A stretch of 64,000 nt of DNA from positions 31,563,540 to 31,627,539 of the forward strand of contig NC_091134.1 of assembly GCF_041381155.1 (NCBI RefSeq), read 5' to 3'. Position 1 is the stretch's first letter. Every line of letters begins with the position of its first letter. The stretch is from Argopecten irradians (lineage: Eukaryota; Mollusca; Bivalvia; Pectinida; Pectinidae). The notes beneath the pieces were generated by a model, which saw only the letters and a program-made list of their open reading frames with translations, had not been told where the DNA came from and ran no database searches. Position numbers and translations under genes: made by a program. Below are positions 19,310 through 60,870 of the stretch, in pieces.

Positions 19310-22300
19310 GTATGAAAAAATATAACAGAGGTTCCTATATATGATATTGTAAATAAAACAGGGACATCTGGGTTTTTATCACATAATCCGCCCGACACCA
19401 GTGATTTCGCCCATGTTACATTTTTGCGTATGTCAGTAGTATTATATGACTTGGCTGGAAATTCATTGTGACATCAGACAAAAACAATCAAATGACGTCA
19501 GAAAAAAATATGTGACATCTGGATTACGAGGACAGCGGGACAAAATTGGGCCTCTGCTAGATTTCCAGAATACATTTTGACGTGAAATTCTTTGTTCATA
19601 TATATATATGTCAAATAGATTTTCGATTCAGTGTAAATGACGAATGTTAATTAGCCTTGAAGTCTTATATGGTTAGTCAAGATTTTTGGCAGTGTTTATA
19701 GCAACATGCTTGTAGAGTGCTTACTAGTCAAAGTTGTTCACTTGGTTTACAATAGTACCAAAAAAAATTAATCCCTATTCTGCATTTACATATTGCAGAG
19801 TTATCTGCCCTTGAGGGTAGGTATTGATTGTGTTGTCATGTGTGTACGACGTATGTCATACTTTTCAAAGAAAACAATGTAAATTGATCGAGCTCACAAA
19901 ATAATGACGTCACAATGGATACCTACTTGCAAGGGAGTTAACTCTGCAATATGCAAAGACAGAATATCTACTCTACAGATCCCTGCAAATCTATATAATT
20001 TTTTTACAGGAGACCAGCTTAATTGAACCTTTTAAAGGTAAGCTATGTATTCAACTTGAAACTTAAACATTGTCTATACGTTATGCCTGGTGGCCGGGAT
20101 GAGGGGTGGGGCCAAAAGGGATTGATTCGGCTATTTCCATATACCTGGTAAATAACTTTATCTCTGAAACAGAGCAATGGATAGCACTCATATTACATTG
20201 GTATTATTCTTATTGGGTGGGATTCAAAATTGTACAAATGGTGGGGCCTGACCCCACGTCAGCCTGAAGGGTGTGGCCATATTTATAAAGGGTCAGTTTG
20301 GCATTTTGTTATATAGATGACTAAATCTAAGGATTTGACAACTCATATTTCATTGGTAGCATCCCTATAGGGTGGATTGTGGTGATTCAAAATTGTAAAA
20401 ATGGTGGGACTTCATAACCCACTTGAGGATTGAGAGGTTGGGCCAAAAGGGGTCAATTTGCTATTTCTATATAAACGACTTCTTTTCTGAAACTATGTAT
20501 GCATGCGGTGGAGATTCAAAACTGTGCAAGTAATGTTAATTCAAACCCTTTGAGGATGTTGGGTGTGGTGCCCAAATTGGTCAGTTTGACAATATTTATG
20601 TGAACAGATTTGTCCCAGAAACTGAGCAATTGATATAACTTATACTTGACTGGTTGTATATTTTTGCTGGGGTTGGGATTCCAATTGAAAGAGATTTTGA
20701 GATTTTTGCTAAATTACCAGGTGAATGATACAAGCCCTTTTGGCCTCTTATATTTATGAAGATTGATATGCCAATTGCATTTGTCAATAGCACAAAATTA
20801 TTATATAACATAATGAAGTCAAACATCATTAAACATAGTCAGGGAAGCCATAATTAAAAATTTCTAATAATAACCTATCCAGGTATTCAAGTTCATTAAG
20901 TGTACTCAAGTTTTATTTAAGTAATGAAAATAGAGAATACATGGTTAGTATATCTTACAATACAAGGTTTATTTTGGTGTGAGACCTAGGAAAGCAGAGA
21001 TGACGAGGCTTTGCCAAGTCATTTCGGCTTTCCGTGTCGAGCACCATAAAACTTGTATTGTAAGATACTAACTGTGTATTCTGTTTATCCTGCAACCATT
21101 ATGGCATTCAAAATAAAAGCAAATTGACAGTTATTTACTTGGTTTCGCTCGAAGCGAGGCGCTTTGATGCGGAGGTAAAGATTCATTCACTAAACTGAAT
21201 GAGAGTGTACCCCTTTTTTCTGCTGTTGGAAATAAATACGGGCATTCAATATCTGAATTCTATTTATTGTGATATATCACTGAAACAAAATGAAAATACT
21301 CAAAAAACAATAAATACCCATTAAAGAATTACTTTACAATACGTAACTTTGCCATGAGCTAAGAAAAAGACGACACCCCCATACAAGATTTTCGATATCA
21401 TAAGAATGTGAATGTGAATGTGACGTCATGTTTTAGCGGGACTGAATGACGTTTCATTCATGTCAGATATGGAACAAATTCTCGTGATCGTATTGACGGA
21501 TAAAGCATTTCGTATTGACAGATAAAGCACATGTTTATCCAGCAGTAGTTATCGGTCAGTACGTATGTGGGACAGTTGCAGGATAAAAGATAAGTCAGAA
21601 CCAACAAAATACTTGACACAAAAAAGATAGAATCTGAACCATTGCATATATACGCAGATGAGACCATAAAGTTTCCATTTTGTATTTTGAGAATTGTTTT
21701 GTATTTTACAGGGAATGAACATCAACAGCGCTGCCATGGGGAGTGCCATCTTGATGATGCAGTCGAACAAGAAAAACTACCACAGTTGTGTAAAAAAAGA
21801 GAACATGAAAATGATGATTGTGAGGCAGTTGTTTATTCTGATGTTGATTTGGAAGACTGTTCAGATTTGGACCTGCAGGACCTGCGTAACGATTGTTGTG
21901 AATGGCCATATATTGAGAGCGCTGATCACCACTCATCTTCTGTCAGCAACACAGAAGTTGCGGAGCCTGAAGCCTTCATTGATATACATTCTAGAGAACA
22001 CAGAAGTGATTTGAACGAGAATGAAGTTGATTTGATATCTTGTGCGAATAGCTCATTTCAACCAGTGTGTTCCATTTGTCTATCACATAAAAATCATGTG
22101 GATGGTTTTTCCTTTAGCTTATCTTCATTAAATATTGGGCACTCATTAAATGACACAACATTATCGATTGGATCTCTGCAACCTTACAACATATTCCAAA
22201 ATGATGTTTCAATTGATCATGATATCAGAATGTCTGACTCTGGTCAGAGTAGGTCTGAAATATCCTTTAGGTTTTCAAGTTCTGAACTGCCAGAGGAGAC

Positions 22301-25300
22301 AGATGACAAGATGATGCCAAAGAATGTTAGATTTGATAGTGGGCTTTCAATAAATACCAGTTTACATTCGTCAACACATAGTGCCGATTATAATTTAAAA
22401 GAACAAGAAATTAAAGTGAATTTAGATTTACTGCAAACTGATCCTGAAAACGAAAGAAAAGTGTTGTACGATATCAGTTTTGATAGCGAGTTTCTGATGA
22501 ATATCATTTCACTTTCATCAACACATAGTGTTAATTCTGCTTCAAAAGGACAAGAAGATGAACAGAATTTAGGACTACTGCGAGAAGTTGAACAGAATCC
22601 AGAATTACTGCAAAGCGATTCTGAGATTGGAAGAAAGATGACATACGATTTTAACAAAGATAAAAAGGCACATTTTTATTCAGATGCTTGTGATCATTTT
22701 TGTCATTTTAAACATAACTCCAAGGAAAGAAAGAAGAGAAATCATGAATATTTAGTAACTGGTACCTCCTATGAGAACACTTTAACGACAGAAGACACCG
22801 TCAGTAGTATTTCCCCCTTAGACAGTGACATTAGTTATATCATGTTCTACATCATCCATAAAAAATCTAGTCAAAAAATCATTACATTCCACAACTTAGA
22901 GGTTAAACAAGATTATCAGCAGAAGACATTTTGCAGGTTGAAGTCATTTGGTCTTCCCATTCCCAGAGGTTTGTGGTTAATAAATCACCTTGAAAGACTC
23001 GGACTTCTGACTTTCCACCAAATCACACCTACAGTTTTTATTGTCGAGCCCGCACTGCACGGACTCGGTGGCTATTTCCAACAGATGGCGCAAGGTCAAC
23101 GTGTCACTGTCATGGACAGTATGCAGTATGAATGGATGCGTGTTCGGAGTTTCTGGTCCTTTCCAAGGAACGCTGGTGTCTCCTATCTACAGTTAGCCAG
23201 GCTAGGGTTTTACTACACCGGAAGAGTATCGGAGACTTGCTGCTACAGTTGTGGCAGAATATATCGGGAATGGAAGGAAGGCGATGATCCAGTGGAAATT
23301 CATCGACGTCTTTCTCCTAATTGTCCTCATCTTAATGGACAGGAAGTCCGAAACAGACCCATCTACCCAGATATCAACCAACAATGGCCTGCCATTCCTT
23401 GGGATCCTTTTGGGGGTCCAGGCGAAGGTCCCAGGGAAGGGGAGGGGACACCAGACTTAGAAGGAGCTGGTATGTAATTTATGTTGTGTATTACAGTGAA
23501 CTATCAATAATATGAACACCTTTGATCCATGCTGAAAACTGTCCAGATTACAAATTTTAGGAACTGCTGAATATTGTGTTCTTAGTTAATATATAGCCTT
23601 ACGGTAATCTGGTCCCTAACATTTCTGTCTGGACTGAGAGTCTTCTAGACTATTGGCGTCCGGATTATCGAGGGTCCACTTTATAACGTTGGTAACACAT
23701 TCTTCAGAATATATTTGAGTGTAGATTATATTAAGAGATATATTTATATCCTGTTTTAGAATGTATTGCATCTGTTTGGAGAAATTGAAAATGCTAAAAT
23801 GAAAAATAGGCAACTAGTTATGAAAGTTATCTCCCTTTACACAGATTCTTGATTTCCAGTTTGATGTTGATGCATCATGTGATGCAACGAAATCTTAGTT
23901 AAAATTGAATGATTTTTAATGTGTTGGCACATTTATGAGTTTGTGTATTCATAAAAATTGCTATAAAGGGCATAAACAAAATGAGAAATTGGCAAAAAAA
24001 ATAATGGTCATATTTTAGCTTAAGAATTGAATCTTGGCCAAAAAATACAAACAGAAACATGGCTGCCACAAAGATAGGTTTGTTTAAAATACATGTAACA
24101 TTGAATGCCCTTTTTTCAACAAATGAAATTAAAATGTTAGTGTCTATATTTCATGCTTCTGTTTTTGAGAAAATTAGAAATCATGAAATATACAATAGTT
24201 TAAAGATGCTCCACCACTGACAAATGGTATTTTTTCACTATAAAAAACAGGAGCAGACAATTCAATATTTTTCTTCAGTTACAAAAGTTACTTATTTTAC
24301 ACCATTACCAACATAGAAGTGTGAGCTTCTAATTTTACCTTAAGTTAAAAAAAAAAAAAAAAAATTAGTTTCATCCCGAAAGGCAAAATGAATTATTTTA
24401 TATTATTTTTTTGTGTTAATTAGACATATATATATATATACAATTTAACACAAATTATTGTTCAAATGTTGAATATAATTTATGCTGTGTCTGCAGTGGA
24501 GCATCTTTAATATTTTTAACTGTTAATTGGTCTTCAGAATCATCAAATAGGGACACAGAACAAACTTCTATAGAGGACAACAGAAGCCAGCCTCGAGGTG
24601 CAGAAGTCAATGTCCCAGTGGAAACAACACATGACCTCCCTTCACTTGAGGCTAATCCTTTGTCCAATATAGCACAACCGAGACCCCAGCATGAGCCTGA
24701 GATAGGCCAGCAGGATCTATCTCAAGTTGAAACTAATCCAGCTGTCCTTGACAGTACACCACACATCGTCCTAGAGGCCCAAACAACTGTGGATCCATCA
24801 GGGCCTGGCTCAGTGTCCAGTGGTAAGGGTATATAAGATCGGATTTCAGTGAGGAGTGGTGAGTAAATGTTTGATATCAGTTCAGTGTTATGTGGTGAGG
24901 GTATGTAAGATCTCAGTTCAGTGTGGGATGGTAAGGGTATATTAGATCTCAGTTCAGTATAGAGTGGTGAGGTATGTTAGATCTCAGTTCAGTGAGGGAT
25001 GGGAGGGAATGTTAGATCTCAGTTCAGTGTGGGATGGTGAGGGTATGTTAGATCCTAGTTCAGTATAGAGTGGTGAGGTATATATGTTAGATATCATTTC
25101 AGTGAGGGATCGGAGGGAATGTTAGATCTCGGTTCAGTGTGGGATGGTGAGGGTATGTTAGATCCTAGTTCAGTATAGAGTGGTGAGGTATGTTAGATCT
25201 CAGTTCAGTTTGGGATGGTAAGGGAATGGTGAGGGTAAGTTAGATCTCAGTTCAGTGTGGGATGGTGAGGGTATGTTAGATCTCAGTTCAGTGTGGGATG

Positions 25301-28300
25301 GTGAGGGTATGTAAGATATCATTTCAGTATAGAGTAATTAGGGTATGTTGGATCTCAGTTCAGTTTTGGATGGTGAGGGTATGTTAGATCTCAGTTCAGT
25401 GAGGGATGGGAGGGAATGTTAGATCTCATTTCAGTGTGGGATGGTGAGGGTATGTTAGATCCTAGTTCAGTAAAGAGTGGTAAGGGTATGTTAGATCTCA
25501 GTTCAGTGAGGGATGGGAGGGAATGTTAGATCTCAGTTCAGTATGGGATGGTGAGGGTATGTTAGATCCTAGTTCAGTATAGAGTGGTGAGGTATGTTAG
25601 ATCTCAGTTCAGTGTTGGATGGTAAGGGGACGGTGAGGGTATGTTAGATCTCAGTTCAGTGTGGGATGGTGAGGGTATGTTAGATCTCAATCCAGTATAG
25701 AATGGTGAGGGTATGTTAGATCTCAGTTCAGTTTGGGATGGTGAGGGTATGTAAGATCTCATTTCAGTATAGAGTGGTGAGGGTATGTTAGATCTCAGTT
25801 CAGTTTGGGATGGTGAGAGTATGTTAGATCTCAATTCAGTATAGAATGGTGAGGGTATGTTAGATCTAAGTTCAGTTTGGGATGGTGAGGGTATGTAAGA
25901 TCTCATTTCAGTATAGAGTGATGAGGGTATGTTGGATCTCAGTTCAGTTTGGGATGGTGAAGGTATGTTAGATCTCATTTCAGTATTGAGTGGTGAGGGT
26001 ATGTTAGATCTCAGTTCAGTGTAGAGTGATGAGGGTTTATTAGATTTCAGTGAAGTGTGGGATGGTGAGGGTATGTTAGATCACACTTTTAGTTTAAGAT
26101 GGTGAGGGTATGTTGGATCTCAGTTCAGTATAGAGTGGTGAGGGTATGTTAGCTCTCAGTTTAGTATAGAATGGTGAGTGTGTGTTAGATCTCAGTTCAG
26201 TTTGGGATGGTGAGGGTATGTTGGATCTCAGTTCAGTATAGAATGGTGAAGGTATGTTAGATCTCAATTCAGTATGGGATGGTAAGGGTATGTAAGATAT
26301 CATTTCAGTATAGAGTGGTGAGAGTATTTTAGATCTCAGTTCAGTATAGAGTGGTGAGGGTATGTTAGATCTCAGTTCAGTTTGGGATGGTGAGGGTATG
26401 TTAGATCACTGTTAAATGTAGGATGGTGAGGGTGTTAGATCTCAGTTCAGTGTAAAGTGATGAGGGTTTAGTAGATCTCAGTTCAGTATGGGATGGTGAG
26501 GGTATGTAAGATCTCAGTTAAGTGTGGGATGGTGAGGGTGTTAGATCTCAGTTCAGTGTAAAGTGATGAGGGTTTAGTAGATCTCAGTTCAGTGTGGGAT
26601 GGTGAGGGTATGTAAGATCTCAGTTAAATGTGGGATGGTGAGGGTATGTAAGATCTCAGTTAAGTGTGGGATGGTGAGGGTGTATTAGATCTCAGTTCAA
26701 TGTAGAGTGATGAAGGTTTATTAGAACTCGGTTAAGTGTGGGATGGTGATGCTATGTAAGATCTCAGTTCAGTGTAGAGTGATGAGGGTTTACTAGATCT
26801 CAGTTCAGTGTGGATTGATGAGGGTATGTTAGATCTCAGAACAGTGTAGAGTGATTTTGTTTTTTAAGATCTCAGTTAAGTGTGGGTGATCATATATCAA
26901 TAATGTCCATTTCAAATAAAAACTGATATAGATATAACTGATGCGGAACGAATAGCAGTATGTATCGTTGTCAGGGTTGAGATTAGGTCCTAAGTGCAGC
27001 GAGCCGCCATATTTTTAACCGAAGAAAGTTACTTTGATATAGCCTGTTGATGGTATGACCGGTGAGCTGCTCGGTTCATATTTGTCATGTATGTATCGGT
27101 CTACGAACGCGATATAGACTAAATTCCTCAAAGTCATGACTTTTATTTTATTTGTCTTACTGACGTAACTATGGAATTCCCCGAACATTCATGAGGAAAG
27201 CCCCTGGTTGTAGCCCAGAGCAGCGATTCATTTTGTTGTTTATTATTGTTACAATTTTTGAACACATATTCTGTTTTGATGTAAAATACATTTTTTTTTT
27301 TTTAAATTAATTGGTTCTCACAACAACTCTTTATTGTTATTTTGAAATCCGACAACGAGGCAACTTTGTTTACACTTCATACAGTAGGCCTACTGTCAAC
27401 CGAGTACTTACGAACATAATATTGTCTGTGCCGCCTAAGGATTAGTCTTGAGACCAATAGAAGACCGAAATTGTTTTTAGCTTATGATTAATTTAATGCA
27501 AATCTTTTATCAGTGAAAAGGTAAAATGTCAATTAAATAATTAAAGTTTATTTAGATTATCATATGAATCTTTACCAAAGCGTGAACTAGAAGTAGTCCG
27601 ATCCTGCTTTTGGTTTGTATTCATACGTCGTTGCGTTTACGCTAATTTGAACACAACTTCCCTCCCGTTGACTATATAGTGGCATATGTAAATATAGGTG
27701 CCACAGCTTTATTGTAATTTCCCTAGACACTTATAAATTATGTTTTAACTATTTGCACCAAATCTTGCATGTTTGATTGGTATCATATTTAAGTCTTAAA
27801 TATTTTAATGACAGAAGGAACATCTAGCAGACAGTCTAGTGGATCAGACAGACCAGCACAGCACCAGGATCCACCAGCAGCTAATCCAGGCCCACAGCAA
27901 CAAGATGCTTACAGACCAGATCAGTCTGTACCCAGAGGAGTCCCTAGGACTGACCCCCGTACACAGTACATGCCACGCTATCCTCTCTATGCTGGCCAAG
28001 AGCACAGAGCAGAAAGTTTTAGAAATGGGTGGCCGGCTTACCTCAACCAAACTCCTCATGAAATGGCCTCTGCAGGATTTTACTATGCAGGTGAATTAAA
28101 AGCTACTTATATTTATATTGATGATGACAAAAAAAAGCAGATACAAAAACTATATATATTTATGATACAATTTAATTAAAGCCTGTATAATCTAGAACCT
28201 GTACATACCTTATAAATTAAGGAAAGAAACACTGTATTAATGTGTTTAGGAAGATTTGTAGAGGATAGCGTTAAACTATTAAATTTTTTTTTTTTTAGTT

Positions 28301-28992
28301 ATCTATGTGAATGTCTATACTTGTGCTTCTCCAGTTTTATTGAGGAGGTCAAGTGGCATTCAAGTGACAGTAGTGCAGGTCTATGCAGACCGAAATTCCG
28401 GTTATGATCTAAAATACAAGATGACAGAAATCACTATCTACTAAGTACTTACTTCCTTGTCACTCAATGTTCTTTTTTTGACAGGAAACAGTGACTATTG
28501 TCAACTTCTTGTCACTATCTGTTCTTGTTTTGACAGGAAACGGTGACTATTGTCGCTGTTATCACTGTGGGGGAGGACTGCGGAATTGGGAGCCTGGCGA
28601 TGATCCATGGGTGGAGCATGCTCGTTGGTTTCCCAATTGTCTGTTTGTGAGACAAAACAAAGGAGAAAGATTTGTTCGACTTGTGCAGCAACGTCAACAA
28701 AATAATGTATGTATTTAGAATGTTTAATCCAGTATGATTTAGTTGTATCATCTTAATTTTGTCATTGTACAAATTTTAGTTGGTAATCACTAATTGCTGA
28801 CTTTTTTATCAGCGACAAAATGAACCCCCTCGCCAGGAACCTGTTTTACAACTCCCACCAGCCAACCAACCACCTCCACCTCCTGTTGAGGGAAATCGGC
28901 TCCAAGGGCAGGCAACTCCACAATCAAATCAGCAAAGTCAGCAAGCAAGGTCACTCTCACCAACTGGTCAGCAGAGTCCAGGTCAGGGTGGA

Positions 28993-29027
<35 letters not shown>

Positions 29028-32000
29028 AAGACAGAGTGCTAAAGAAAATACAGGTAAATTGTAGATGTGGCATATGAGTATTCAGTAAATTAACATAAAG
29101 CTCGTATGAGGATATTTCTGCTATTTCATGTTGGAAAAAAATGTATGTAAAATTTGTTTTACAAAATTACAAGACAAAGAACTGAAAAATTGTCTTATTA
29201 CATTAATTGGCCCAATGGGCCAAAGTGTCCAGGTTGGGTTTTGGTGCAATTGTTGTAATACTGTTATCCATCACAACTGACATTGAATTCTACAATCATT
29301 TTGGATTTATAATTGTTGTGGTGGGTATGGACAATCATTTAAGGGAGGAACATGCTGGATTTTGATCATTTCAAATGGCCCAATGGGCTGAAAAAATAAG
29401 TTATGTAATGATATTCTATAATTTATGATACTGGAACCTTATCTAAAACAACAAATCTCCAGAGGCGATCTCTGACAGCTTTGCTATTCTATATTGGAAT
29501 TATTGAAATCTTTTCTGTGAAGGTATTAAAAAAAAAATGAATCAGATACATTGTATCATGCAGAAGCACCAGTGGATGAAATGAGCCTTGCAGCTGTGGA
29601 AAGCTTAAAGGTGAATGGTATCAGCTCAAGTCGCATACACCAAGCACTGCAGATATGGAAGAAGCAACGAAAAAAAGGTATGGAATAACACTAATTATCA
29701 GTTCCTGTAACTATCTTTGTAATAACAGACTACAACATTCACTGTACTTTTAGGGGTTTTGTATGCTGCCGGTTGACTTGAGATTGACTTCACATTCATT
29801 TGGTTAAATTTTCAGAATACAAGATCACTGATATCACATCTGCGGACCTGATGCAAATTATATTTGACATAGAAGACGATGATCGGCGCTTTACAGAAGC
29901 AAGTAGTCAGTTTGCCTCAGCTCTGTCTCTTACGAGTGCAGAGGCTGTCAGGGGAGAGAGATCCGATGGTGCAGGAGCACAGTTCTCGGGAACTACATCT
30001 GAAGCTCCAACTCCCACTGATCCTGAAAGTGAGTCTCGTACAATTTATTGTTCAACAGCTAAATTCAAGTTACTACAATCAATTACAGTGTAATCCTGAT
30101 TCTAAGTCATGCTAGAAATAGAGATCATTTAACTTATACAAATCACTTTTGATGACCTGGATTAAAGCGTGAGGGGTCTTAGAGTGCCAGGAAAACAGAG
30201 TGCCTAGAGAAAACCCATAAGATCGGGCAGGTGACCTCTGACCTTTCAGGCAAATGCTTAACCACTACACCACCCAATCACCAGATATTCAGTATCTGTG
30301 ACCTCATCATACATGCCATACCTCCCGGCGTGAGACAAAACCTCCCGTATTTTAAAGCCTTTTATTGTCTCCCGACAGGAGAGTTTAAATTCCCGATTTC
30401 TATAAACCCCTCCGTTTTATTTTCGTTGCCACATTTGTGTATATGCTAGATTAATTTTAACACGAGAGTAACCACTCCCTGACCAACACCCAAGTGGCCC
30501 TAATTAGCAGCCTTGGGCTATTTCCACCTTGGCTTGTAGTGTCACTTTCACTCATGTCTGTGTATTACGTAAACTGAAGTCAAGCTGCCGATCGGCCGCG
30601 TAGAAAAACTGGCCTTTCAATAAATTTTATGACTACAGCTAGTGAGCATTACAACAAAACAAATACTGCTTACAACTGTGAATGATTTACACACGTTTTT
30701 AATGTTAAATAGGCCTATCTGTATTTGATGGATGTCACAACCTTTGCAATCGAAATGGCCACCATTTTGGGTAATTGTTATAGATGATCCGGATTTTATA
30801 GAATTTCCGGATTTCCTAATAACAACGTTTTTAAAAATGGAAAAAGTATTATTTTTTTAGAATTTCTGTGTGAATTTATTTTCAGAAAAAAAATATATCA
30901 ATAATAAAAAATTATCAGTAGTAACTGAATTTAAATAAATAAAATTAAAAAGAAATTTACTTTTTTTCTCTCAGATTAAATCACATTTTGTATACTACTG
31001 TAACGATTCTGGGTTTTTTTTTTTAATTTAGTGCTTATAAATTTAAGAACTTTATCTAAGTTAATTATCCGTTATTGTGAAAGATTATTAAAAAGCCCAG
31101 TATAATATTTCGAACAATAAAACTGCTCCAGACTGGGTGTATATATTGGGATGTGACCACACATTCCTTTATTTCAGTAAAATTCAATATGAACACAGAA
31201 TTTCATCATAAAAAAGCAGATATTTAATTAATTCATATATGTCGCGCGTATACCGTACCTCCCTCTTTTGAGACCAAAATCCCTTAAAGTGGTTATCAAT
31301 CTCCCTTTCCACCCCTAGAAAAATATGGGCATGTATGCCTCATTGTCAGTTTAATTACAATAGTTTCCATAAATATCAATGATAGGTAAACATGTTGAAT
31401 GATCAATACCAATTTTACTGCTTTAATTGTTATTCCTGGCTAACATCCAGGCCTGAGTTATCTTAATCCTGTTAAATGTCAGTGCCTGATGTTAATTATT
31501 ATTACGATTGATATCAGAAAATCAATATCCTGATGAATGCCAAAAATCTTGATCATGATTGATAATGATAATTTATCAAAACTGATTTATGTTGGAGAAT
31601 CAAAATCTTGATTAATGCTGATGAATCATTATATTTATTAATGATGGTGTATCATGATCAGGAGCCTAATTATTCTGGGTTTTGAATTCACAACAACCAT
31701 GACCAATTACCAAGTGCACAATATGTGTTGTTGATAGAGAATGATTACAATAGGCAATATTTACTCTTTGTAATTGTATATCTTCCTTTTGTATAAATGT
31801 ACTTTTCCTTATAAAGAAGTTTTAATATGCTAATGGTAGACTATTAATATGAAATGGATAAAAAATTCTTCTTGACAGTACGATATTTCAATTGTCTTAC
31901 TTTTATAGTGGCTGAGTTGGTGGCTCTTCAGAATGAGATAGAAGAGAGGAGGAAGAAACTAATGTGTTCAGTATGTGGAGAGAATGAAGTGACTGTCGCG

Positions 32001-32111
32001 TTCATTCCATGTGGACACCTTGTGGTCTGTTATCAATGTGCACCAGCCATGATCACATGTCCAAACTGCCGGGAGCCAGTGAAGGGCAGTGTCAAGGTCT
32101 TTCTCATGTAG
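19151..32111 (+). CDS. inhibitor of apoptosis protein: 2 BIR, UBA-like, RING (10 exons)
   Basis: IAPs bind caspases or IAP-binding-motif partners through BIR domains and act as RING E3 ubiquitin ligases in apoptosis and immune signalling. I joined ten exons by GT-AG sites and phase: 19151-19309, 20010-20037, 21712-23469, 24538-24822, 27815-28090, 28537-28706, 28813-29053, 29564-29677, 29816-30028 and 31909-32111. The sum is 3447 nt, predicting 1148 residues. Zinc ligands of BIR1 are C573, C576, H593 and C600; of BIR2, C843, C846, H863 and C870, both C-x2-C-x16-H-x6-C. A UBA-like helical segment lies at about 975-1032 and a RING from C1101 to the end. A TAG at 19139-19141 is in frame just upstream of the chosen ATG. 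The protein is about twice the usual cIAP length because of a BIR-free N-terminal half. Exons 1-2 are the least certain part: no homology supports them, only phase and splice sites. Confidence 0.88.
19390..19592. mobile_element. MITE (intact partner of the split copy at 58690-60870)
   Basis: Its left part (ccagtgatttcgcccatg, tttttgcgtatgtcagtag, gaaattcattgtgacatcag) matches the reverse complement of 60770-60870. Its right part (ctggattacgagg, tctgctagatttccag, ttttgacgtgaaattctttg) matches the reverse complement of about 58690-58770. It lies in IAP intron 1. Confidence 0.8.
19776..19966. mobile_element. palindromic MITE, copy 1
   Basis: The ends tattctgcatttacatattg / caatatgcaaagacagaata are inverted copies, and the pairing runs inwards through gagttatctgccct and agggagttaactc. 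A second copy with the same ends and the same core (gagctcacaaaataatgacg) lies at 42774-42961. In IAP intron 1, just before micro-exon 2. Confidence 0.88.
20010..20037 (+). CDS. IAP exon 2, 28-nt micro-exon
   Basis: Pyrimidine-rich acceptor (tttttttacag) and a strong donor gtaagc at 20038. It enters in phase 0 and leaves in phase 1, exactly what exon 1 and exon 3 require. It encodes ETSLIEPFK. Confidence 0.5.
20085..20760 (+). repeat. degenerate tandem-unit element in IAP intron 2
   Basis: Units of roughly 130-150 bp share ggtgggattcaaaattgtac, tctctgaaacagagcaa-like, ggtcagtttg-like and ggtgtggcca-like blocks. The end, caagcccttttggcctctta, resembles the ends of the elements at 32284-32975 and 58801-60760. 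Confidence 0.65.
20932..21083. mobile_element. small foldback MITE
   Basis: gagaatacatggttagtat and cttacaatacaagg at the left are mirrored by cttgtattgtaagatac and taactgtgtattctg at the right. The loop carries a gaggctttgccaagtcattt segment. A further 13-bp inverted pair (tttatcctgcaac at 21085, gttgcaggataaa at 21574) may mark another element between this one and exon 3. Confidence 0.7.
21712..23469 (+). CDS. IAP exon 3: long N-terminal region and BIR1
   Basis: A single open exon of 1758 nt (acceptor ttttacag, donor gtatgt). The first part is acidic and Ser-rich, with two diverged repeats of about 55 residues (about 22320-22660) sharing a SSTHS core and a LLQxD segment. A hydrophobic, probably folded segment follows at about 22812-23100. 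BIR1 (about residues 534-604) contains GFYYTG, CCYSC, a GDDP turn, H and C in canonical spacing. The exon ends with a PG-rich tail. Confidence 0.92.
24201..24510 (+). mobile_element. MITE abutting IAP exon 4
   Basis: taaagatgctccaccactga at the left end is mirrored by tgcagtggagcatcttta at the right end. The interior has a poly-A run and a TA microsatellite. The related copy at 3216-3525 is in the opposite orientation. Its right end is 27 bp before the exon 4 acceptor. Confidence 0.85.
24538..24822 (+). CDS. IAP exon 4: low-complexity linker
   Basis: Phase 1 in and out; acceptor gtcttcag, donor gtaagggt at 24823. It encodes an E/Q/P/S-rich linker between the two BIR domains and has no known fold. 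The acceptor lies 28 bp after a MITE, and the donor is the first unit of a minisatellite. Confidence 0.8.
24823..26890. repeat. 36-bp minisatellite filling most of IAP intron 4
   Basis: The unit gggatggtgagggtatgtta + gatctcagttcagtgt recurs some 55 times. The 36-bp period also shows as a 12-residue periodicity in reverse-strand frames, which are not genes. Two unit types tend to alternate (tatagagtgg versus tttgggatgg), suggesting a 72-bp higher-order form. The array starts at the exon 4 donor: exon end plus gtaagggtatataagatc is recognisably the first, diverged unit. Confidence 0.95.
26900..27814. other. remainder of IAP intron 4, nothing recognised
   Basis: Ordinary A+T-rich intron sequence between the minisatellite and the exon 5 acceptor. 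No exon, RNA gene or clear repeat seen. Confidence 0.5.
27815..28090 (+). CDS. IAP exon 5: linker and start of BIR2
   Basis: Acceptor aatgacag, donor gtgaatt at 28091; phase 1 in and out. A Q/P/S-rich linker leads into the N-terminal half of BIR2 ([10 protein letters not shown] and GFYYAG). The BIR is split by an intron just before the zinc-binding half, as exon 6 confirms. Confidence 0.9.
28433..28588 (+). repeat. tandem duplication across the exon 6 acceptor, period 52 bp
   Basis: cttgtcact + ttcttttttgacaggaaac + gtgactattgtc is present twice, giving AG acceptors ending at 28484 and 28536. The downstream copy gives the frame that completes BIR2. The upstream copy would shift the frame and reach TGA at 28545-28547, 20 codons in. 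Confidence 0.9.
28537..28706 (+). CDS. IAP exon 6: zinc-binding half of BIR2
   Basis: Encodes [20 protein letters not shown], then H and C in the BIR spacing, and a charged helix ([12 protein letters not shown]). Acceptor tgacag at 28531-28536; donor gtatgt at 28707, phase 0. A duplicated acceptor with a matching start of exon lies 52 bp upstream. Confidence 0.92.
28813..29053 (+). CDS. IAP exon 7: Q/P-rich linker with poly-Ala
   Basis: Phase 0 in, phase 1 out. It encodes a P-rich segment ([12 protein letters not shown]), Q-rich stretches and a run of 12 Ala from eleven GCT codons plus GCA (about 28993-29028). A pure trinucleotide run of this kind is likely length-polymorphic. Confidence 0.88.
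29564..29677 (+). CDS. IAP exon 8: UBA-like segment, first half
   Basis: Encodes a helical segment ([20 protein letters not shown] and [11 protein letters not shown]) in the position where cIAP-type proteins carry a ubiquitin-associated domain between the last BIR and the RING. The UBA call rests on position and pattern, not on an invariant motif. Phase 1 in and out. Confidence 0.8.
29816..30028 (+). CDS. IAP exon 9: UBA-like segment, second half, and linker
   Basis: Encodes [20 protein letters not shown], completing a UBA-like three-helix pattern, then an A/S/G-rich linker. Acceptor attttcag, donor gtgagt at 30029; phase 1. Confidence 0.82.
30118..30283 (-). mobile_element. tRNA-derived SINE in IAP intron 9
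   Basis: Minus-strand copy of the family at 1176-1373: ggtgattgggtggtgtagtg head, ggttaagcatttgcctgaaa, gatcttatgggttttctcta body and the same cttatacaaatcact edge. Confidence 0.75.
31909..32111 (+). CDS. IAP exon 10: coiled segment and RING finger
   Basis: Acceptor ttttatag; stop TAG at 32109-32111. A charged helix ([14 protein letters not shown]) precedes a C3HC4 IAP-type [24 protein letters not shown], then CYQC and CPNCR. The C-terminal tail VKVFLM is typical of IAP RINGs, which dimerise through this end. Confidence 0.95.
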
Positions 32112-41660: not shown

Positions 41661-42452
41661 TCAGTCCAATACTGAGATGTAATCAGTCCAATATTGAGAT
41701 ATGCAAATCAGTCCAACATTGAGATATGCAAATCAGTCCAATATTGAGATATGCAGATCAGTCCAATATTGAGATGTGCAAATCAGTCCAATACTGAGAT
41801 ATGCAAATCAGTCCAATATTGAGATATGCAGATCAGTCCAATATTGAAATGTGCAGATCAGTCCAATGTTTAGATATGCAGATCAGTCCAATATTGAGAT
41901 ATGCAAATCAGTCCAATATAGAGATATGCAGATCAGTCCAATATTGAGATGTGCAGATCAGTCCAATTTTTAGATATGCAGATCAGTCCAATATTGAGAT
42001 ATGCAAATCAGTCCAATATTGAAATATGCATATCAGTCCAATATTGAGATGTGCAGATCAATCCAATATAGAGATATGCAGATCAGTCCAGTATTAAGAT
42101 GTGCAGATCAGTCCAATATTGAGATGTACAGATCAGTCCAATATAGAGATATGCAGATCAATCCAATATTGAGATATGCAGATCAGTCCAATATTGAGAT
42201 ATGCAGATCAGTCCAATATTGAGATGTGCAGATCAGTCCAATGTTGAGATGTGCAGATCAGTCCAATGTTGAGATGTGCAGATCAGTCCAATATTGAGAT
42301 ATGCAAATCAGTCCAATATTGAAATATGCATATCAGTCCAATATAGAGATATGCAGATCAGTCCAATATTGAGATGTGCAGATCAGTCCAATATTGAAAT
42401 ATGCATATCAGTCCAATATAGAGATATGCAGATCAGTCCAATATAGAGATGG
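41661..42452. repeat. 25-bp satellite, about 32 copies
   Basis: The unit gatatgcagatcagtccaat + attga repeats without interruption. Variants change atgcagat to atgcaaat, atattga to atataga, and gatatg to gatgtg. Ends are sharp. The 25-residue periodic open frame at 42001-42222 is a by-product of the repeat. Confidence 0.97.
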
Positions 42453-58689: not shown

Positions 58690-60870
58690 ACATAAAGAAT
58701 TTCACGTCAAAATATATTTCGAAAATCCAGCAGAGGCAGCCATTTTGTCTCGCTGCCCTCGTTATCCTGACGTCACGTCATTTTTCCTTAAAACATTTTA
58801 GGTCATCTGACCCGAAGGGTCAGGATGATCTATTGTCATCATGCACCGTCCGTCGTCGTGCGCCGTGCGCCGTCCGCCGTGTGCCGTGCGCCGTCCGCTG
58901 TCGGCTGTTCGCCGTCGGCCGTGCGCCGTCCGCTGTGCGTAAACTTTTCATTCAAACGACTTCTCAATAACCGAAAGGCCCAGGGTACTGACATTTGGCC
59001 TGTAGCATGCTAAGATGAAGGACTACCAAGTTTGTTCAAATGAATGACCTTGACCTTCATTTAAGGTAGCAGGGATCAAATAGGCTAAAATCCTTTAAAC
59101 AACTTCTTGTGAATAACTAAGAGGCCTAGAGACCTGATATTGAGCCTCTCACATGCTAGGATGAAAGGCTATCAAGTTTGTTCAAATCAATGACCTTGAT
59201 CTTCATTCAAGGTCACAGGGGTCAAAAATGCTAAAATCTTTAAACGACTTCTTCTCAATAACCAGAAGGCCCAGGGTACTGATATTGGGCATGTAGCATG
59301 CTTGGATGAAAGGCTACCAATTTTGTTCAAATGAATGACCTTGATCTTCATTCAAGGTCACAGGGGTCAAAAAGGCTAAAATCTTCAAACGACTTCTCCT
59401 CAAGAACCAGAAGGCCCTGGGTATCAATATTAGGCCTGTATCATGCTGGGATGAAAGGCTACCAAACTTGTTCAAATGAATGACCTTGACCTTCATTGAA
59501 GGTCACAGGGGTCAAATAGGCTAAAATCCTTTAAACAACTTCTTGTGAATAACTAAGAGGCCTAGAGACCTGATATTGTGCCCCTGATATGCTGGGATGA
59601 AGGGCTACCAAGTTTGTTCAAACCAATGACCTTGATCTTCATTCAAGGTTGCAGGGGTCAAAAATGCTAAATTTTTTTAACGACTTCTTCTCAAGAACCA
59701 GAAGGTTCAGGGTATTGATATTGGGCCTGTAGCATGCTTGGATGAAGGGCTACCAAGTTTGTTTAAATGAATGACCCTGACCTTCATTCAAGGTCACAGG
59801 GATCGAAAAAATCTTTAAACGACTTCTTCTGAAGAATCGGAAGGCCAAGTGTACTGATATTGGGCCGGTATCATGCTGGGATGAAAGGCTATCAATTTTT
59901 TTCAAATGGATGACCTTAACCTTTATTCAAGGTCACCGAGGTCAAATAGGCTAAACTCTTTAAACAATTTCTTCTCAAGAACCAGAAGGCCCAGGGTACT
60001 GATATTGGGCTTGTAGCATGCTGGGATGAAAGGCTACCAAGTTTGTTCAAATGAATGACCTTGACCTTCATTCAAGGTCACAGGGGTCAAATAGGCTAAA
60101 TATTTACACGACTTCTTGTGAATAACTTAGAGGCCTAGACCTGATATTGGGTCCCTGACATGCTGGGATGAAGGCCTACCAAGTGTGTTCAAATGAATGA
60201 CCTTGATCTTCATTCAAGGTCACAGGGGTCAAAAAAGCTAAAATCTTTAAACTACTTCTTCTCAATAACCAGAAGGCCCAGGGTACTGATATTTGGCATG
60301 TATCATGCTGGGATGAAGGGCTACCAAGATTGTTCAAATGAATGATCTTGATATTCCTTTAAGGTCACAGGGGTCAAGTAGGATAAAAATTTTAAACGAC
60401 TTCTTCTCAAGAACCAGAAAGCCCAGGGTACTGATATTGGGCCTGTAGCATGCTGGGATGAAGGGCTACCAAGTTTGTTCAAATGAATGACCTTGACCTT
60501 CATTCAAGGTCACAGGGGTCAAATAGGCTAAAATCTTGAAATAACTTTTTTTTGTGAATAACTAAGAGCCCTAGAGACCTGATATTGGGCCTGTGACATG
60601 CTGGGATGAAGGACTACCATATTTGTTTTAAAATAAATGACCTTGATCTTCATTTAGGATCACAGGGGTAAAAATGGCTTAAATATTTAAATGACTATGT
60701 TGTATTGTGCCAATAGTCAGATGATCGTTATGGCCCATGTGCCTCTTGTATTGTTCTGTCTGAAGTCACAATGAATATCCAGCCAATGAAAATCGTGCCA
60801 GGTCATATTACACTAATGACATACGCAAAAATATTAAACGGCCGAAATCACTGGATATCAGGGGGAATGG
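58690..60870 (-). mobile_element. MITE split by a 2-kb insertion
   Basis: 58690-58797 matches the reverse complement of the right half of the MITE at 19390-19592, and about 60765-60870 matches the reverse complement of its left half. The 2 kb between them is the tandem-unit element at 58801-60760. This is a nested insertion. Confidence 0.8.
58801..60760 (+). repeat. tandem-unit element with aaggtcacaggggtcaaa blocks, copy C
   Basis: Head tcatctgacccgaagggtca, then a cgccgtgcgccgtccg-rich stretch (58850-58945). More than ten degenerate units follow, each with tgggatgaaaggctaccaag-like, gaatgaccttgaccttcatt and caaggtcacaggggtcaaa blocks. Two unit types alternate: cttcttctcaataaccagaa and cttcttgtgaataactaaga. 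The end is caatagtcagatgatcgtta + tggcccatgtgcctctt. The short reverse-strand frames at 59314 and 60321 come from the repeat. Confidence 0.9.

Follow-up and report, generated by a model that had tools for sequence, protein, structure and literature searches.

A 36-bp minisatellite overlapping the inferred 5′ splice site of exon 4 in an inhibitor-of-apoptosis gene of Argopecten irradians

We analysed a 64,000-nt window of the bivalve Argopecten irradians (contig NC_091134.1, positions 31,563,540 to 31,627,539, forward strand; coordinates below are those of the window), which contains a gene of the BIR/RING inhibitor-of-apoptosis (IAP) type. A minisatellite of 36-bp units runs across the inferred exon-4 donor of this gene, and that donor is itself the first unit (unit 0) of the array. 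The exon is numbered as in an initial annotation of the same DNA, which had described the exon 4/intron 4 junction as the first, diverged unit of a 36-bp array of about 2 kb; Tandem Repeats Finder (TRF), the register of the donor and a comparison of 36-mers bear this description out. The features concerned are:

24810..26886, plus strand: 36-bp minisatellite, starting within exon 4 and occupying the first 2 kb of intron 4 (TRF and wrap-around alignment)
24823..24828, plus strand: presumed true exon-4 donor, gtg/GTAAGG, its GT aligned with that of every unit that keeps one in register
24538..24822, plus strand: exon 4, 285 nt, phase 1-1, encoding the inter-BIR linker, with the left part of unit 0 as its final 13 nt (frame and consensus)

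The exon-4 donor as unit 0 of the array

TRF reports the 36-bp array at 24810–26885 with 57.2 copies, and wrap-around alignment to the array consensus, TCAGTGTGGGATG/GTGAGGGTATGTTAGATCTCAGT, resolves 24810–26886 into 57 full units (numbered 0–56) and a 10-nt stub. In this alignment, the GT of the exon-4 donor (24823) shares a column with the GT of the other units. Unit 0 has its first column at 24810 and its GT at 24823, the proposed exon-4 donor, so the array takes in the last 13 nt of exon 4. An array with units in the 10–100 bp range thus overlaps the inferred exon–intron junction, with the donor inside a unit.

The resemblance of unit 0 to the rest of the array exceeds that found elsewhere in the window. 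Unit 0 shares 28 of its 36 positions with its best matches in the array, units 2 and 3, compared with 23 for the best 36-mer outside the array (n = 61,843). With the nine donor columns dropped, so that the donor consensus itself could not produce the match, unit 0 still agrees at 20/27 positions, a value reached by 0 of the 61,843 outside 36-mers (best 19). The 13 exonic bases, TCAGTGTCCAGTG, are equalled on the unit profile by 9 of 61,886 window 13-mers, and their best identity, 11/13, is reached by 11 of 61,886. Among the 158 13-mers that precede a GTRAG outside the array, none equals the exon end on profile or identity. Bases −13 to −4 alone are weaker evidence, being equalled by 206 of 61,886. 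The homology ends at 24810, the 36 nt immediately upstream matching at 11/36. Chance resemblance of the exon-4 end to the repeat unit was rejected on the 36-mer and 13-mer comparisons.

Other identities for the array were also considered and rejected. Two pieces of the unit have no other copy in the window, on either strand, within 6 substitutions in 23 nt or 8 in 29 nt, and an exact match to the 23-nt piece is absent from viral contigs, so the array is not a dispersed or transposed repeat as far as the window and the viral contigs are concerned. It is not an exon, as the frame continuing exon 4 meets 52 stops across it. A 158-residue minus-strand open reading frame (ORF) at 25604–26080 is a 12-residue periodic frame produced by the 36-bp period, and its frame meets 35 stops over the entire array, which excludes antisense coding. 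Finally, Rfam contains no family at gathering score within 24400–28200, and the predicted fold of 24790–25000 shows no stability beyond that of shuffles (188 of 200 shuffles at least as stable; z = +1.44), so RNA structure or a known RNA family was rejected as an explanation for these intervals.

Donor-like sites downstream of exon 4

Donor and acceptor scores throughout derive from approximate frequency tables that were not trained on the source species. On this scale, the true exon-4 donor scores 8.33, and 38 further GTs in the array score at least as high. Elsewhere, such GTs number 29 on the plus strand outside the array and 26 on the whole minus strand, with 0 on the minus strand of the array. 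Dinucleotide shuffles of the array (n = 200) yield at most 15 (mean 6.7), the densest other 2,064-bp stretch holds a maximum of 5 on the plus strand and 8 on the minus strand, and four other arrays in the window contain 0, 0, 0 and 4 on their richer strand. A count that needs no table gives 58 GTRAG motifs on the plus strand of the array (true site included) and 0 on its minus strand; outside the array, the window has 80 on the plus strand and 78 on the minus strand. By the approximate table and the GTRAG counts, the downstream units are comparable to the true donor in donor quality.

The initial annotation had proposed splice-site scoring of each unit as a check, and scoring of the GTs in the array supports the view that the spliceosome faces dozens of donor-like sites after exon 4, many of them scoring as high as the true donor or higher. 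The description of the array as holding about 55 donors, in nearly every unit, stands as to their abundance and falls as to their number: the GT is kept in register by 44 of the 57 units (unit 0 included), and GTRAG is present in 38 units as aligned, or in 41 with alignment gaps closed. To call these sites weak, as that description did, understates them, given the number that score at or above the true donor. In addition, 35 of the 57 units carry a second donor-like motif, GGTATGT, a few bases downstream, which the earlier description lacked. The site closest to the exon is:

24859..24864, plus strand: nearest competing in-register donor (unit 1), gtg/GTGAGT, 36 nt downstream of the true donor

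This site scores 9.17, above the 8.33 of the true donor, and its best U1 duplex is also the more stable (−10.8 versus −8.5 kcal/mol).

Across units 1–56, mean conservation is 0.891 in the donor columns versus 0.878 in the other columns, and the donor block ranks 22 of 36 nine-column blocks. The donor columns are no better conserved than others; therefore, column conservation in these units gives no sign of selection on the donor motif, which fits passive copying. Two arrays elsewhere in the window, at 41661–42450 (25-bp units) and 58960–60696 (145-bp units), have no donor enrichment on either strand.

Origin of the array, the host gene and donor choice

The array starts in the exon, and its birth from the splice-site segment is the simplest reading of that start, one that fits the sequence and is unproven. 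Specifically, a segment made of the 13-nt exon end and the first 23 nt of the intron would have been duplicated in tandem and expanded by unequal exchange, the donor being copied passively. The array has turned over: 246 of 263 alignment columns agree between units 5–11 and units 16–22, a block duplication, and several of the units, as aligned, are mutually identical. In this one haplotype, the block duplication is at most suggestive of copy-number variation between alleles. Identity to the consensus is 26/36 for unit 0 and 24/36 for unit 56, against a median of 32 for units 3–50. Units are thus diverged at both edges of the array, so edge divergence gives no direction of growth. Of the initial proposal that the array grew out of the splice-site segment, the start in the exon and the donor as unit 0 hold, and the direction of growth does not follow. 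A scan of viral contigs for an exon-4 orthologue returned 17 stretches that fit the peptide pattern, with none confirmed as a relative.

The exons flanking the array encode a first and a second BIR and a RING (Pfam), and the gene has the BIR domains and C-terminal RING of an IAP gene. The first BIR region matches BIRC, XIAP and IAP chains in PDB. Together with an in-frame stop just inside intron 4, the remaining features of the gene are:

21594..23469, plus strand: upstream IAP coding region with the first BIR (Pfam BIR, 4.6e-15), ending at the phase-1 donor GT at 23470, spliced frame consistent; 21594 marks the start of a stop-to-stop ORF and need not be the 5′ end of the gene
24834..24836, plus strand: TAA in the exon-4 frame, met by read-through or by use of any downstream donor
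27815..28090, plus strand: exon 5, 276 nt, phase 1-1, start of the second BIR (Pfam BIR on its ORF, 7.2e-05, 23.7 bits versus a cut-off of 22.9; frame)
31909..32111, plus strand: RING exon of the IAP gene (Pfam zf-C3HC4_3, 1.3e-14, on ORF 31848–32108)

Introns 3 and 4 measure 1,068 nt and 2,992 nt. The 24822/27815 junction given in the initial annotation is consistent in reading frame: joining exon 4 to exon 5 leaves the frame open into the second BIR, as does skipping of exon 4. Such skipping would delete 95 residues of the inter-BIR linker.

Two further repeats lie in this gene. A 52-bp tandem duplication at 28451–28554 spans the exon-6 acceptor; the AG of the upstream copy (28484) scores 12.3, compared with 11.2 for the frame-consistent AG (28536), and would shift the frame to a stop. 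With this duplication at the exon-6 acceptor and the array at the exon-4 donor, the gene has two splice sites that fall within tandemly duplicated sequence. A GCT run at 28993–29027 (11.7 copies) lies in an open frame of the gene and reads as polyalanine.

Every extension of exon 4 past 24822 meets the TAA at 24834, so its product would be truncated after the first BIR and the linker and would not carry a variant linker. The suggestion that donor choice makes the inter-BIR linker variable does not survive this stop, which leaves the extra donors giving no in-frame isoforms. A stop with later exon junctions downstream is expected to lead to nonsense-mediated decay. Transcripts spliced at unit 1 or at a later donor would contain the TAA and would probably be removed by this route.

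With flanking introns of 1.07 and 2.99 kb, exon 4 would be recognised across the exon, and the donor nearest its acceptor (unit 0, 24823) would be the one mostly used. The exon-definition class is defined by flanking introns over 200–250 nt in the available part of one study (PMC9225289); introns 3 and 4 exceed this, and exon 4 falls in that class. The same part of the study reports that the upstream donor is favoured in 60% of human events with near-equal donors, and that under exon definition the upstream donor was the only one used in 5/5 minigenes carrying a pair of identical strong donors. We judge that unit 0 is probably the main donor of exon 4, with leakage and skipping both possible. 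The array would then be intronic repeat DNA that is for the most part tolerated, perhaps at a low cost in unproductive splicing. The full account, namely a segment duplicated at the junction, a donor copied passively, unit 0 mostly used and an array mostly tolerated, is the best explanation that we can offer, and we hold it with moderate confidence.

Several points pull the other way. In the available part of PMC9225289, the stronger donor dominates in 86% of events, and the downstream donor is favoured in ~60% before strength matching. The minigenes in question had strong donors and a strong acceptor, and when donors were weakened, the larger-exon constructs mostly skipped the exon (PMC9225289, same part). 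In the IAP gene, the unit 1 donor outscores the true donor, and exon 4 is 285 nt long with a modest acceptor (4.5), so frame-keeping skipping is possible. Furthermore, unit 0 is no closer to its neighbours (units 1–3) than to random units (p = 0.25), and neighbour closeness was rejected as a sign of local birth. Finally, every exon–intron boundary was placed by frame and consensus.

Alternative readings and related systems

The donors of units 1 to ~10 might instead be used at a real rate, each leading to the stop at 24834, so that the content or length of the array sets the level of full-length IAP. Such an unproductive-splicing dial would draw on the stronger score and U1 duplex of the nearest decoy and on the stop that awaits every extension, and it has reported parallels in IFI6, where two downstream repeat units are used as donors (PMC4526556, available part), and in TERT, where an intronic variable-number tandem repeat (VNTR) shifts splicing and the products are decayed (PMC11830802, available part). 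Against it stand the exon-definition results, which in the available part of PMC9225289 favour the upstream donor, and donor columns that lack extra conservation; we consider it unlikely. That the self-multiplied donor acts as an allele-length-dependent dial, the number and quality of nearby repeat donors setting the fraction of transcripts that end at the 24834 stop, seems to us distinctly doubtful. The order of events might also be reversed: the array would have arisen within intron 4, or its edge would have been copied onto the end of the exon, and it would have supplied the donor and the last 13 exonic bases. The diverged units at both ends mean that position shows no direction, and unit 3 is the only other unit to combine +3A with +11A, as unit 0 does, so the array and the junction have exchanged sequence or share descent. 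An origin in the intron requires the loss of an older donor, however, and the exon frame runs through the 13 bases into a consistent exon-5 join, a frame that an invasion would have to preserve; we regard this origin as rather unlikely.

Two readings give the array a role of its own, and both appear much less probable. As a platform for U1 binding and G runs, its U1 sites and GGG runs would strengthen the exon-4 donor or shield intron 4 from cleavage at the AATAAA at 26915. The array holds 77 GGG runs, whereas the 0.93 kb of intron 4 beyond it has 1; this AATAAA, 29 bp beyond the array end, is the sole one in the intron; and U1 reportedly guards transcripts against cleavage at polyadenylation signals within introns (PMC5499120, available part). 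A single hexamer, however, is weak evidence of a cleavage site, the donor columns again lack extra conservation, and the Rfam search of 24400–28200 and the ordinary folding of 24790–25000 lend the platform nothing; we rate it as very improbable. Intron 4 also contains two ATTAAA hexamers, at 27532 and 27540. The other reading, put forward in the initial annotation, has 9-nt in-frame units (tgtgggatg) spliced into the linker as micro-exons. Nine nucleotides would keep the frame, and the exact form CAG/TGTGGGATG/GTRA occurs in 8 units. The three best array AGs (6.6, 5.7 and 5.7) also score above both real acceptors, which are themselves modest (4.5 for exon 4 and 5.5 for exon 5). Yet array AGs scoring at least 5 number 3, against ~11 predicted from an outside density of 5.3 per kb, although those scoring at least 3 are mildly enriched (37 versus ~21 expected). 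Unless special enhancers assist, an exon of 9 nt is difficult to define. Micro-exons from the array are thus possible in principle, with little to support them, and we rate them as extremely unlikely.

Human IFI6 (6-16, G1P3) has a minisatellite whose repeat unit we take to be short. This minisatellite reportedly supplies several donors, to go by the title of Turri, Cuin and Porter 1995 (NAR 23:1854). The available part of PMC4526556 describes isoforms that arise from the use of two downstream repeat units as donors. In both genes, as far as that part describes IFI6, a minisatellite spans a splice donor; the extra donors give isoforms in IFI6, whereas the IAP array has 36-bp units in ~57 copies and every extension stops at once. 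From its sequence, we would class the IAP array as a donor-spanning minisatellite rather than an isoform generator of the IFI6 type.

The internal tandem repeats of human segmental-duplication genes are likewise minisatellite expansions, which at exon–intron boundaries can alter splicing and form new introns (PMC2812944, available part). The gene-modifying repeats described there overall have mean values of 30-bp units, 4 copies and 160 bp, and their evidence of transcription was analysed, whereas the IAP array has ~57 copies over 2 kb and is known from DNA alone. The VNTR6-1 repeat in TERT intron 6 has a 38-bp unit in 24–66.5 copies and is reported to affect splicing with decay of products; unlike the IAP array, it sits ~3.5 kb before exon 7, has G-quadruplexes as its proposed mode of action, and is not described as overlapping a splice site in the available part of the report (PMC11830802). 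Creation of an intron by tandem duplication across an intron–exon boundary carries splice signals along, as in the IAP array; that process, as the available accounts describe it, yields a new intron, whereas the IAP array shows none and has multiplied an existing donor. In oyster IAP genes, alternative splicing adds domain diversity, and a repeat at a donor is not mentioned in the available part of that study (PMC8917759). A literature search that was little aimed at IAP genes and covered few subscription papers turned up no IAP gene reported to carry such an array, and we make no claim of absence. The IAP array is a new, long case of a known kind, that of the boundary and donor minisatellites of human genes, and differs from them in its unproductive extra donors.

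The locus offers a natural test of donor choice, in which one acceptor faces similar donors at 36-nt steps and the first alone gives full-length protein. If the first donor alone is used, it would be a clean natural case backing cross-exon proximity rules. If the array instead acts as a dial, its turnover alone would alter the IAP dose between individuals. The locus thereby bears on whether a minisatellite can tune the expression of an apoptosis inhibitor.

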